A stretch of 64,000 nt of DNA from assembly GCA_015711795.1 (NCBI GenBank), contig JACVJC010000005.1:1-64000 (forward strand), in the 5' to 3' direction. Origin of the DNA: Candidatus Geothermocultor quzhuomuensis (GTDB lineage Bacteria > Actinomycetota > Aquicultoria > Geothermocultorales > Geothermocultoraceae). Below the pieces are notes generated by a model, which ran no database searches, had not been told where the DNA came from, and worked only from the letters and a program-made list of their open reading frames with translations. How positions within the stretch are numbered: the stretch's first letter is position 1; each line of letters begins with the position of its first letter. Made by a program: the position numbers and the translations under genes. Shown piece after piece: positions 163 to 48,236 of this stretch.

Positions 163-381
163 TTATCGCCCCTCTATTCCTTCGCAAATCAACCAAATCA
201 ACCTCCTCTCCCCTGAAGCTTCCAGGGAAAAGGTATCGTCAACAACTATGAATTGGCCGAGGTCGCACCTCGACCAGTCTTAATCCACCTCCCAACCTTG
301 TAATTTTTCGTAAAATTTCTTGTATTTCTTCCTCCAGCTCACCACCCCTGACGTAAGCGCCTAAAATTGGCGAGCCAAAGA
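163..381 (-). pseudogene. Unrecognised coding remnant that begins at a CRISPR repeat edge
   Basis: On the minus strand a frame opens directly after the last bases of the repeat at 382-417 (LFGSPILGAYVRGGE...) and reads a charged helix-like stretch of about 45 residues to a stop. A neighbouring frame continues with plausible protein (VDDTFSLEASGERRL) to a TAA near 163, so a frameshift seems to lie between them. I do not recognise the family. It has no start of its own; its N-terminal side is the CRISPR repeat. It could be the C-terminus of a real gene joined to the array by recombination or by assembly error. Confidence 0.3.
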
Positions 382-493
382 GTTTCAATCCTTGTTTTAT
401 GGTACTCTATTTTCAACTACAGAGCTAGAACATATTTTCATAACACCTTGTCCAAAGTTTCAATCCCTTAGAGGGGTTTTTCTTCTTATCTAC
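382..493 (-). CRISPR. Residual CRISPR unit: repeat, spacer, second repeat of a different family
   Basis: Read on the minus strand there is a 37-nt repeat (493-457) ending AAGGGATTGAAAC, a 39-nt spacer (456-418), and a 36-nt repeat (417-382) ending AAGGATTGAAAC. The ATTGAAAC end is the usual 5' handle sequence of type I-B and type III arrays, and repeat and spacer lengths are normal. The two repeats agree only at their last dozen bases, so they belong to different families. The first matches the lone repeat at 3048-3084 with few differences. Only one spacer remains. Both outer flanks are coding-like sequence rather than more array. Repeats are clear; a functional array is unlikely. Confidence 0.6.
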
Positions 494-660
494 AATAATT
501 CTCAACAAGGTGCTTTTTCCGGAGCCAGAAGGCTCAACAATGGTGACAAACCGTTTTCAAAAAGGTCGAAGTCAAAGTCTTTTATTACCTGAAACCCTTT
601 TCCGTCTTCAATGAAAGATTTGCCTATGTGGATTACTTTGATAATGGCTTCTTTTTTCAT
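494..660 (-). pseudogene. NitT/TauT-type ABC transporter ATPase, N-terminal fragment ending at a CRISPR repeat
   Basis: The start ATG overlaps the stop of the upstream double permease (ATGA), so the two were a translationally coupled transporter operon. The N-terminus (GKGFQVIKDFDFDLFENG) is that of the nitrate/sulfonate/taurine ATPase family. One base is missing near 549, in a short T run; after it the other frame gives VTIV, then the P-loop PSGSGKSTLLRII. The coding sequence stops exactly where the 37-nt CRISPR repeat begins at 493, leaving only about 55 of the usual 250 or so residues. As assembled the transporter has no ATPase here. Confidence 0.7.
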
Positions 661-2378
661 TCAATCTCCAGAGAAAATCTTTTAGCGGCAAAGCGATAAA
701 GTTTTTGCCATACAAGTCGATTAAGCACAATTATAATTAAAACTAAGACTGTGAGGGTAATAGCTATTTTTAATGGGTCACCATATTGGTAATTAGCTTT
801 ATCAAGTAAAGCACCTATGCCAAAAACCGAATAAGTCTGACCTTTGAAAACACCATATTCAGCCACCACTAGAGCATTCCACGAACCTCCCCAAGCAGCC
901 AGCGACCCAGTAACCAGGGCCGGGAAAGAACCGGGGATTAAAACTTTTTTTGCCAGGAAAGTGCGGGACTTTGTCAGAGCCATAATGCTTTCTTTTATTT
1001 CCTCTGGTATGTTTCGCATCAACCCAAGCACCGGGAAGAATATGTACCAGAAAGAAGTAGAAAAGATTACTAAAAAAGCGGTTAATTCTAAACCGAAAGG
1101 TATTTTGTTTTTTAACACCAAAGCTAAAAGAAGTGGGTATAAGGCGGTGCCTGGCAGCGAAGCCATCATTTGTAAAAAAGGAGTGAATTTTCGATAGGCT
1201 TTTTCATTGCTTACGAGATAAGTGGCTAAAAGAAGAGCGATGACCACACATATGATATAAATAAGTAAGATTCGAAAAAAAGAGGCAAAAGTGGCTAGTA
1301 TGGATAGAGCAAAGAAGAGCCAAGGGAAAGGTTTAGAAATTAAGTCAAGAAAAAAAGAGCGGTTAGTAAAAAGGAAAAGCAACAAAAGAAAAGCAAGAAG
1401 AGTAAAAAAAATAGAATTCGCTAATTCAAAAAGGCTTTTCCCTGATTTTGGTACTTTGGAAATTAGCTCTAAAGAAGATTTTTCCATGTTGAACAAAACT
1501 TTTTTTATAAGCTTGAAAACTTTGTTCAAATGAAAAAAAAGCAAAAGGTCTTTTATTTTAGAAAAGACAGTTGAATATTGAGTGGTTTCTCCTTCCGCGA
1601 CCATTTGATAAGAAAACTTTTTGGACCAGTCCGAAAGTGGCTCAAAGAGAAGTTTGTGCAGTATATAAATAATTAAAAATAAAACAGTTAAGGTGATAAG
1701 AGTTAGATGAAGGTCTCCTTTTTCTGAAGAAAGCCAGAGGAGATAACCAATTCCGGGTAGTTTAAACTCCTTAGCTCCTATGGCAAAGATTTCCGAAGAC
1801 ATTAGAAAAAACCAGGAGTTTGCCCAGGAGACCATTGAGTTGTAAGTTAAACTAGGGATACAGGCAGGAAAATATAATTTTTTGAAAGCGAGCCACCCCT
1901 TTAGCCCTAAGGAATTCGACAGGCGGCTTAAATCTTTAGGAATGGTAATTAGCGATTCATAAACTCCAAAAGCCATATTCCAAGCTTGAGAAGTAAAAAT
2001 TAGAAAGATAGCAGCTAGTTCAGTTCCTATGCGCTCTCCTTGAAAAAGTGAGACAAAAAGAGCTATTGCTACCGGGAAAAAGCCGACCACCGGGACTGAC
2101 TGCAGGACATCAAGTGTTGGCAGAAGCACTTTTTCGAATTTTTTATTGAAAGCGGCTGCAAAGCCCATTGAGACAGCAAAAATAAAAGATAGAACGTAAG
2201 CAGCCGCTATTCGACCAACTGAGAACAGGGAGTAACTCAAAAGCTTGTTCAGCGGCGACGGTAGCTGTAAAGTTATGAGATAAGAAATTAAGGGAATTGC
2301 AAAAACAATTAAAAGTAAAACAAGGTTTTTTAAGATATCTATTAAGTTGAATTTGATTTCCTGAGTTTGGGTCTTCAT
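657..2378 (-). CDS. ABC transporter permease with two fused BPD_transp_1 domains (NitT/TauT type)
   Basis: This 573-residue membrane protein has two copies of the binding-protein-dependent permease domain, one in each half. Each carries an EAA-type cytoplasmic loop for ATPase contact (about residues 150-175, LSRLSNSLGLKGWLAFKKL, and about 460-485, IKESIMALTKSRTFLAKKV). Double permeases of this kind pair with an NtrD/TauB/SsuB-like ATPase, whose gene starts immediately downstream with a 4-nt overlap but is broken by a CRISPR repeat. No substrate-binding protein gene is in the window, so the substrate is unknown. The reading frame is intact, unlike its neighbours. Confidence 0.85.
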   Translation of the reverse strand: MKTQTQEIKFNLIDILKNLVLLLIVFAIPLISYLITLQLPSPLNKLLSYSLFSVGRIAAAYVLSFIFAVSMGFAAAFNKKFEKVLLPTLDVLQSVPVVGFFPVAIALFVSLFQGERIGTELAAIFLIFTSQAWNMAFGVYESLITIPKDLSRLSNSLGLKGWLAFKKLYFPACIPSLTYNSMVSWANSWFFLMSSEIFAIGAKEFKLPGIGYLLWLSSEKGDLHLTLITLTVLFLIIYILHKLLFEPLSDWSKKFSYQMVAEGETTQYSTVFSKIKDLLLFFHLNKVFKLIKKVLFNMEKSSLELISKVPKSGKSLFELANSIFFTLLAFLLLLFLFTNRSFFLDLISKPFPWLFFALSILATFASFFRILLIYIICVVIALLLATYLVSNEKAYRKFTPFLQMMASLPGTALYPLLLALVLKNKIPFGLELTAFLVIFSTSFWYIFFPVLGLMRNIPEEIKESIMALTKSRTFLAKKVLIPGSFPALVTGSLAAWGGSWNALVVAEYGVFKGQTYSVFGIGALLDKANYQYGDPLKIAITLTVLVLIIIVLNRLVWQKLYRFAAKRFSLEIE

Positions 2379-2380
2379 AC

Positions 2381-3020
2381 TTGGTTAATTTTAACTCTAA
2401 CCCTTATAATGTTGAAGAAAGAAAATTTAGAGAGAGGAGACCTTTCTTTAGTTTATTTATTACTTTTGAAAGGAGGATAAAAAATCTCCTTAATTTTCTG
2501 GTTTTTTGTTGCTTGGCTTTATTTGTTCTTGCTTTTCTTGCTTTAATACCTTTACTTTTTTACCTCTTTAGTTTAGCTAACGTTATTGCCATACCAACTC
2601 AGTTTGTAAGGCATTTTAAAAATAAAAAAGCCTGGCAAAATCACACTTTGGAGCACGCAACTATTAATATTTTGGAACAGGAATACGGGTACATTTGTTT
2701 GACTGGTCTTTCTTTTGAAGATGGTTTTTTTTATTTTTGGGATTGACAAGCAGACTTGATTTTAAAAGCGGCGCAAGACGGGCACGAACGTTTGCAAAAG
2801 GGCAAAAGAAAGTTGGCCTTGTATCGACAGTGTGGGGCTTCCACCGGAATTTTTTTGTTTGTATTTTCTCCTATTTTCTGGTTTTTTCCTCCTTTACTAG
2901 ATTGATTACCTAGTTTCCTTCTTTTTTTTTCTTGACATTAATTTTTAACCCCGCTCTTGATTTATTGGCTCAGCAGTTTTTAACTACTTCTTCTGATATG
3001 AGCGGTCTGGTGATTGCTTG
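2381..3020 (+). pseudogene. DUF6391-like protein, broken by two in-frame TGA codons and a frameshift
   Basis: The frame encodes a hydrophobic segment, then the motif HTLEHATINILEQEYG, which resembles DUF6391 proteins. It reaches TGA at 2744, but continues in the same frame with family-like sequence (YRQCGASTGIF) to another TGA at 2903. After a one-base shift in a long T run near 2930 it continues with NPALDLLAQQFLTTSSDMSG, like the family C-terminus. The lesions look like decay or sequence error. Selenocysteine is unlikely because the TGA positions are not redox-motif positions. It diverges from the permease at 2378 and runs towards the CRISPR repeat at 3048. Its function is unknown. Confidence 0.55.
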
Positions 3021-3047
3021 ATAGAACAGGTTATTCCAGCTGAAAAA

Positions 3048-3084
3048 GTTTCAATCCCTTACAGGGGTTTTTCTTCTTTTCTAT
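3048..3084 (-). CRISPR. Solitary CRISPR repeat abutting the cas10 fragment
   Basis: This 37-nt sequence matches the repeat at 457-493 with only three differences. On the minus strand it ends ATTGAAAC. No second repeat lies within normal spacer distance on either side. On its right the cas10 coding sequence stops exactly at the repeat edge; on its left lies the DUF6391 remnant. The two copies are 2591 bp apart in the same orientation. Confidence 0.6.
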
Positions 3085-3447
3085 TTTTGTGAAAATTGAA
3101 AGAAGCCTTGTCTCTTTTGTTTTTAAGCTCCCTTCTTCTTTATCAGATTCGAGCTCTATCCTCTCACCCGAAGACAACCAATCCGATAACTGCACAATTC
3201 TTTCATCAGGCTCAGTGGGCTCGTGATGATTTCGAATTATTCTTTGGATACTGTCAATTTGATCATATATAGCTTTAAATTTCCCTTTGTTCTTTTCCAA
3301 GAAAGCAGCTCCAACTCCAGCATGAGAGTAGGTAGTTCTAAACCAATTGCCAAGGTGAGTAATGTCATAATTAGCCCGCTGGAGTGGTTTTCCTATGTCA
3401 TGGAGTAAAGCTCCTAAATATACCTGCAATCGTTCTTTTGTCATCAC
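3085..3447 (-). pseudogene. csm1: Cas10/Csm1 N-terminal HD-domain fragment (type III CRISPR)
   Basis: The protein starts with an HD nuclease domain: YLGALLHDIGKPLQR, then SHAGVGAAFLE, RNHHEP, and LSDWLSSGERIE, which corresponds to the Csm1 SAGER signature and points to subtype III-A. Full Csm1 proteins are around 750-800 residues; only about 120 remain, ending in LLSIFTKI. The remaining 18 codons of the ORF, to 3031, are read through the CRISPR repeat and past it. The GGDD cyclase domain and the other csm genes are absent. The start overlaps the cas6 stop (GTGA), so cas6 and cas10 were coupled. Single-strand DNase and cyclic oligoadenylate functions cannot be complete here. Confidence 0.75.
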
Positions 3448-4198
3448 AGCCTCCGGGTCATACCCATCCCGTGGGTAGTTTTGCGCCCAGTGCCAGCGAA
3501 AAAGGCATAATCCGCTAAGAGATTTATCTGACGTTTTGCTTCTTTCTCGACACTATTCTTTATGATAAAAGTGACTTTTCCCACAAAGCCAGGAATGGTT
3601 ATTCTGCCATCATTAAAAGGAATTGTTTTTATGTCCATTTTTGAAATTCCTACTTCTCTTTCTATTATATCGAGTAGATTTAACATTAACCCATCAATTT
3701 CTGAAAATTTTTTCCACTTTTTATAATAACTTTGAAAAACGAGTCGAGGCAAAGGCAGTGGCAAGTCTAAGTCACTCTGCCGAAAAGCAGTGGGAGTGTG
3801 AAATTCTAAAGTAATTTCCTCAGTTGAACTTGCGTTTTTAAAAAGGTCTTTATGAGTAGAATAACCCCCCACTTGTTTTGTTTTACCCATATTTCTTTGA
3901 CTAAGAAATTGTTCTCTTTTAGAGAGAGCATGGGACAAGGATTTTCTATAAAATAAACGAAGAAAAGAGGAGAAATTTCATCGTCTAAGAGAGTTACTCT
4001 AAACCAGTGGTCTTTGCGGTATTTAAAAATAGGTGAGATTGTAAAAGCTTTTTGCCCAATGCTCTGGTGAATTTTTTTGCTTACCTCTGGGTTAACGGTC
4101 TCAAACAAATAAAGAATGGAGGCATGGAGATTTTTTGGGTTTACTTTCTGGTCATCCTCTAAACTTCCTTTGATAACACAGGCTAGAGGCATTACCAC
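3444..4198 (-). pseudogene. cas6: Cas6 CRISPR RNA endoribonuclease, single-base frameshift
   Basis: The N-terminal frame (from 4198) has the Cas6 pattern MPLACVIKGS and later IGQKAFTISPIFKYR. The C-terminal frame (to 3444) has EFHTPTAFRQSD and ends with the glycine-rich loop GTGRKTTHGMGM, the RNA-binding signature of Cas6. The frames join if one base is restored near 3970, within ctttt-ctt-cgttta, giving PLFFRLFYRKSLSHAL. The restored length, about 250 residues, is normal. Cas6 cuts the repeat RNA to make crRNAs. The coupled cas10 fragment lies downstream. The single lesion could be a sequencing error. Confidence 0.75.
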
Positions 4199-47331: not shown

Positions 47332-48236
47332 AGTTGTATGACTTAATCATTATTGGAGGAGGGCCAGCCGGTTTAACAGCTGCTGTTTATGCTGCCCGAA
47401 AAATGATGAAAACCTTGCTGGTCTCTGAAAATATTGGTGGACAGCCCCTCAAAAGCTCAGCCATTGAAAACTACCTCGGTTATTCTTATATCAGTGGAAT
47501 CGAGTTAGTTGCCAAATTTACAGAACATGTTGAGAAGTTTTCTATTGAAAAAGAATTGGCAAAGGTCAACAAAGTCACTAAATTAAATAATGATTTTAAG
47601 GTAATAGCTAAAGATAAAACCTTTAAAGGAAAGACAGTAATCATTGCTTCAGGAAAATCACCCAGATATTTGAATGTCCCTGGAGAAAAAGAATTTTTTG
47701 GTCGGGGAGTTACTTACTGTGCCACTTGCGATGCCCCCCTTTTTAGCGGAATGGATGTTGCTGTAATTGGTGGAGGTAACGCAGCTCTTGATGCAGCTTC
47801 CCAACTTGCTCTTATTGCTTCCAAGGTTCATATCATCTCTCTTAGCTCATGGACTGGTGACCCCATAACCCAGAAAAAGATAAAAGAATTTAAAAATGTC
47901 CATCCTTGGATTGGCTATCAAACTCTTCAAATTGAAGGAGATAAATTTGTTCAAGGAATTGTTATTGAGAAAATTGAATCGGGCGAGAAAAAGAAAATAC
48001 CACTTCAAGGCATCTTTGTTGAAATTGGCTCCATTCCTAACTCCCAAATTGTTGAGGGACTAGTTGAGCTAAATGAGCAAAAAGAAATTATCGTCAACTG
48101 TAAATGTGAAACTAATGTTCCTGGTCTTTTTGCCGCTGGAGATGTGACTAATGTTCCAGAAAAACAAATAATTATTGCTGCTGGTGAAGGAGCTAAAGCT
48201 GTCCTAAGTGCTTCTAAATATTTATTAGAAACTTGA
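47328..48236 (+). CDS. trxB: Thioredoxin-reductase-like flavoprotein (AhpF-like NADH type)
   Basis: 302 residues: FAD motif IIGGGPAGLTAAVYAARK, redox site VTYCATCDAPLF (CxxC), nucleotide motif VIGGGNAALDAASQLA and the C-terminal LFAAGDVTN. The usual NADPH motif HRRxxxR after the second Rossmann is replaced by IISLSSWTGDPITQK, and the following FVEIGSIPNS resembles the AhpF reductase domain, which uses NADH. It is translationally coupled to the Sec-glutaredoxin, so that is its likely substrate. Confidence 0.9.
   Translation: MKLYDLIIIGGGPAGLTAAVYAARKMMKTLLVSENIGGQPLKSSAIENYLGYSYISGIELVAKFTEHVEKFSIEKELAKVNKVTKLNNDFKVIAKDKTFKGKTVIIASGKSPRYLNVPGEKEFFGRGVTYCATCDAPLFSGMDVAVIGGGNAALDAASQLALIASKVHIISLSSWTGDPITQKKIKEFKNVHPWIGYQTLQIEGDKFVQGIVIEKIESGEKKKIPLQGIFVEIGSIPNSQIVEGLVELNEQKEIIVNCKCETNVPGLFAAGDVTNVPEKQIIIAAGEGAKAVLSASKYLLET

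Follow-up and report, generated by a model that had tools for sequence, protein, structure and literature searches.

Described type III-A loci and CRISPR arrays

Plasmid pTbrSNM4-1b of Thermus brockianus harbours an intact type III-A CRISPR-Cas locus (NZ_AP025594), in which cas6 adjoins cas10, the 807-aa cas10 is followed by csm2-csm5, and both cas1 and cas2 are present. In degenerate or orphan loci of this type, adaptation genes are lacking, and remnants of cas6 and cas10/csm1 persist next to repeats that bear the customary GTTTCAATCC/GGATTGAAAC handle. A plasmid of Leptolyngbya sp. BL0902 (NZ_CP046159) carries an array of 33 regular copies of a 37-nt repeat at ~72-nt spacing. Self-targeting by a type III-A system in S. 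aureus is stated in a review to have selected for large deletions of the target and for mutations in cas genes (PMC6990116), and for Cas1-Cas2 one-ended insertion was found to be common in vitro (PMC8390005). A gene joined to a repeat in the arrangement presented below is not described in the available parts of these two papers.

The locus analyzed here lies at the beginning of a contig (C5, 88.7 kb) of Candidatus Geothermocultor quzhuomuensis, of which the first 64 kb form the stretch of DNA studied, referred to as the window. The genome (1.76 Mb, 38 contigs) is rated 100% complete. The locus resembles the degenerate type III-A loci in its cas6 and cas10/csm1 remnants, its repeats with the same handle and its lack of adaptation genes. 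Unlike in these loci, cas10 is cut near a repeat that also borders an unrelated pseudogene of a transporter. The Cas10/Csm1 N-terminal HD region shares 29% identity with that of T. brockianus, and here too cas6 adjoins cas10, but the Thermus locus is complete. The locus is probably what erosion has left of a former type III-A CRISPR-Cas locus, in which deletion or rearrangement would have joined chromosomal genes to the edges of repeats.

Repeats and spacer-length sequence

A 37-nt CRISPR-type repeat, designated R, is located at 457-493 (GTTTCAATCCCTTAGAGGGGTTTTTCTTCTTATCTAC); its transcribed sense is the minus strand, ending in ATTGAAAC. A second copy at 3048-3084 (minus strand), missed in the earlier note, lies beside the truncated cas10 gene. 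The two copies are direct, 2,591 nt apart, and bracket a 2,554-bp segment (494-3047). They differ from each other at 2-3 positions, 34 of 36 positions being identical. When the 64-kb window was dinucleotide-shuffled 20 times as a control, the best match per shuffle to the first 36 nt of R had 10-14 mismatches, compared to 2 for the second real copy. R adjoins three broken genes, coding for an ABC ATPase, Cas10/Csm1 and a DUF6391 protein. No further R or array copy was found elsewhere in the genome or in 35 other genomes of the class, and a search for the repeat sequences in the full text of papers found none. The Leptolyngbya repeats are near-identical to R over the first 19-25 nt, while R is present as two isolated copies 2.6 kb apart and not as a regular array. 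As these repeats, also 37 nt long, have the same first half, a placement of the edge of R at 493/494 is supported by analogy.

At 382-417 (minus strand) a lone CRISPR-type repeat of another family, R', is found, with a length of 36 nt, or 39 nt when the shared CTAC end is counted. R' has only the GTTTCAATCC handle in common with R. It is the sole copy in the genome and resembles Rfam CRISPR-DR7 with 22.3 bits, under the gathering score of 37. Between R' and R lies a sequence of spacer length (418-456, minus strand; 36-39 nt, according to how R' is delimited). It had been noted earlier that a spacer and another repeat follow R. One spacer-length stretch is indeed there, but the next repeat belongs to another family, and the sequence 382-493 is therefore not a normal array. 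Several near-identical, regularly spaced repeats are not found, as R occurs only twice and R' differs in family. The 418-456 stretch had no match among phage records, viral contigs or the genome itself, and a search of viral contigs for exact R or for this stretch gave no match either. A phage search using 370-500 returned just one 21-nt match, which is at chance level. A further GTTTCAATT motif occurs on the same strand at 133-169, possibly a third degenerate repeat or a chance occurrence. Left of R' a protein-like ORF (239-388, minus strand; LFGSPILGAYVRGGELEEEIQEILRK...) was observed, without a family match above cut-off.

The truncated ABC transporter ATPase gene

R copy 1 abuts an ABC ATPase pseudogene (494-660, minus strand) comprising the N-terminal ~56 codons. 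The fragment is like nitrate/taurine-type ABC transporter ATPases in its N-terminus, P-loop and location next to a permease gene, and differs from these in being truncated, frameshifted and altered in Walker A. The match to intact ATPases, at protein as well as DNA level, ends at ...LLRII, which is base 494. This bears out the claim of the earlier note that the gene ends at the 37-nt repeat; the join lies at the repeat edge, within a base or two. The gene was also rightly called broken. Intact ABC ATPases combine Walker A, Walker B and the signature motif in one frame, while the fragment is truncated after the P-loop, has the first Gly of Walker A changed to Glu, lacks the later motifs and has a broken frame. 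A frameshift is present upstream of the join too, and the gene was therefore decaying and not merely cut. The partner of the broken ATPase, a double ABC permease of 573 aa (657-2378, minus strand), is intact. An intact ATPase elsewhere in the genome, with the array unrelated, had been put forward as evidence against the proposed origin of the join. This applies in part: such an ATPase is present on contig C3 beside its own permease, but the pair is 47-48% identical to the present one (47% for the ATPase), and it is a diverged paralog and not the parent gene of the fragment. Another ATPase, for example this paralog, may still serve the intact permease.

The exact edge at 493/494 would be accounted for by recombination between spacers and genes. 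Self-derived spacers against the ATPase and cas10 genes would have undergone RecA recombination with their targets, deleting the intervening DNA and leaving exact-edge joins. Autoimmunity would favour such deletions as well as cas gene loss, in agreement with the target deletions and cas mutations selected in S. aureus (PMC6990116). However, no self-spacer survives, as no array spacer identical to a gene was found in the genome; the earlier note had suggested looking for an array elsewhere with a spacer equal to the ATPase sequence, and a search of the genome did not find it. In the genome 494-660 has no second near-identical copy, arrays with this handle are otherwise lacking, with a total of one array-like match, and cas1 is absent. 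Moreover, at least two independent self-spacers would be needed, since cas10 is cut at the same repeat, and an exact join of this kind was not found described in the literature. Such an origin is possible but rather unlikely. The earlier note considered that recombination, as well as an assembler crossing from gene to array, implies a spacer matching the transporter gene. This is too strong, because deletion or aberrant integration yields the same join.

Remnants of the cas genes

A fragment of cas10/csm1 encoding the N-terminal HD region (3085-3447, minus strand) is truncated at R copy 2 or close to it, leaving ~121 codons of about 800. Of the 753 positions in the Csm1 profile it matches only the first ~100, and it scores 68.7 bits against TIGR02578, for which the cut-off is 170. 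A profile search of the genome revealed no second cas10; besides the fragment, only a weak HD-domain match in an unrelated 732-aa protein was obtained. The adjoining cas6 (3444-4198, minus strand) gives Pfam Cas6 matches in two overlapping frames, with a frameshift near 3,900. The type III-A arrangement of cas6 next to cas10 is thus retained, with cas6 as a frameshifted pseudogene. A complete Cas10/Csm1 with csm2-csm5 is not, as only the HD fragment is left and there is no room for csm2-csm5 between this fragment and its neighbours. No PF01867 (cas1) match was found in the genome, while control genomes were positive.

The DUF6391 pseudogene and the segment between the repeats

The other end of the segment between the R copies is occupied by a DUF6391 pseudogene (2381-3047, plus strand) with in-frame stops, three TGA and one TAA, and a frameshift. 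Its homology reaches to ~40 nt from R copy 2, and the end of the gene is not sharply resolved. An intact second copy is located on contig C6. A genetic code with UGA read as Trp, which would rescue the gene, was rejected, considering that TGA ends 12 of the 61 gene-like ORFs in the window and that the C6 copy is intact. An in-frame TGA at 48234 was likewise rejected as a selenocysteine codon; it lies between two separate genes, one thioredoxin-reductase-like and the other of the DUF2064 family. Within the class DUF6391 is hardly represented, with one other weak match. In relatives carrying the permease no DUF6391 gene adjoins it. The GC content of the 2.55-kb block (0.34-0.38, compared to 0.355 overall) is uninformative on foreign origin.

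With direct R copies flanking 494-3047 and a broken gene at each end, this segment could be viewed as a giant spacer. Cas1-Cas2 would have integrated an overlong 2.55-kb chromosomal fragment, with R duplicated on both sides and the ATPase and DUF6391 genes cut at the ends, and another one-ended event would have attached cas10 to the repeat on the leader side. A natural spacer of about 2.55 kb is not known. In addition, cas1 is now absent, the R copies are not identical, the DUF6391 end lacks the sharpness of the ATPase join, and a second event is required for cas10. One-ended integration at repeat edges does dominate in vitro (PMC8390005). Overall, an origin of the segment as a giant spacer is highly improbable.

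Assembly and reality of the joins

The ATPase join lies at most 660 nt from a contig end in a draft assembly of de Bruijn type with 38 contigs, and a chimera of a transporter gene and a CRISPR array therefore has to be weighed. Overlaps of exactly 127 nt occur at six contig-end pairs, and positions 1-127 of C5 match 1-127 of contig C36 exactly, the node where C5 ends. From these exact overlaps it is concluded that a de Bruijn graph with k=127 was used for assembly. The stretch shared by C5 and C36, which has the inverted ends GGGTCAA...TTTGACCC and contains the last part of an ORF, probably represents one end of a mobile element at which the assembly broke. As k=127 exceeds the ~37-nt repeat and spacer length, such short sequences should not mislead the assembler; an artefactual join would require a shared stretch of k nt or more, whereas the repeat has 37 nt. 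A multi-k assembly could create false joins at smaller k. Both R sites sit among pseudogenes with independent lesions while nearby genes in the window are intact, making a chimera very unlikely. From the sequence the joins more likely represent a real, old scar than an artefact, because the joined genes are decayed and carry lesions unrelated to the join. Of the two origins offered in the earlier note, assembler crossing is accordingly disfavoured by k=127 and the extra lesions, and recombination is possible but met no positive support.

Origin of the joins

A lost type III-A locus is the preferred explanation because R is found only twice, with one array-like match, no cas1 and the cas10 fragment alone, and because cas6, the ATPase and DUF6391 genes carry lesions within an assembly of k=127 signature. 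The type III-A system would have been inactivated, and deletions or rearrangements would meanwhile have joined chromosomal genes to the stranded repeats. One join, at the repeat edge, would have cut the ABC ATPase behind the P-loop. The other would have cut cas10 at the second R copy, with loss of csm2-csm5, of the leader and of cas1/cas2 if these were present. The unselected pieces would afterwards have accumulated stops and frameshifts. In detail, the arrays most likely collapsed and illegitimate deletion struck the repeat edge or its immediate vicinity. Repeats, truncations and lesions are directly visible, as is the absence of other repeats and cas1; from these we infer that deletion was the process and in which order it took place.

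Two 5' edges of R have been hit, for the ATPase exactly and for cas10 less sharply determined. This argues somewhat against deletion, as a random endpoint in an array is estimated to fall within about 2 nt of a repeat edge in ~1/15 of cases each, an estimate to be read with the fact that the case was picked out beforehand. Such hits being somewhat unlikely for random endpoints, spacer-gene recombination at either join and, with lower probability, aberrant integration come into consideration as well. The locus is likely inert now.

Significance

The earlier note was right at the core of its observation, and its interpretation was possible but over-committed. As a decayed CRISPR relic the locus is ordinary; the set of joins is unusual. 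If the segment between the repeats were a giant spacer, spacer acquisition itself would have rearranged genes. If repeat edges proved to be recurrent breakpoints, spacer acquisition or self-targeting spacers would be linked to gene loss, and the two joins at one locus make this breakpoint question testable in relatives.
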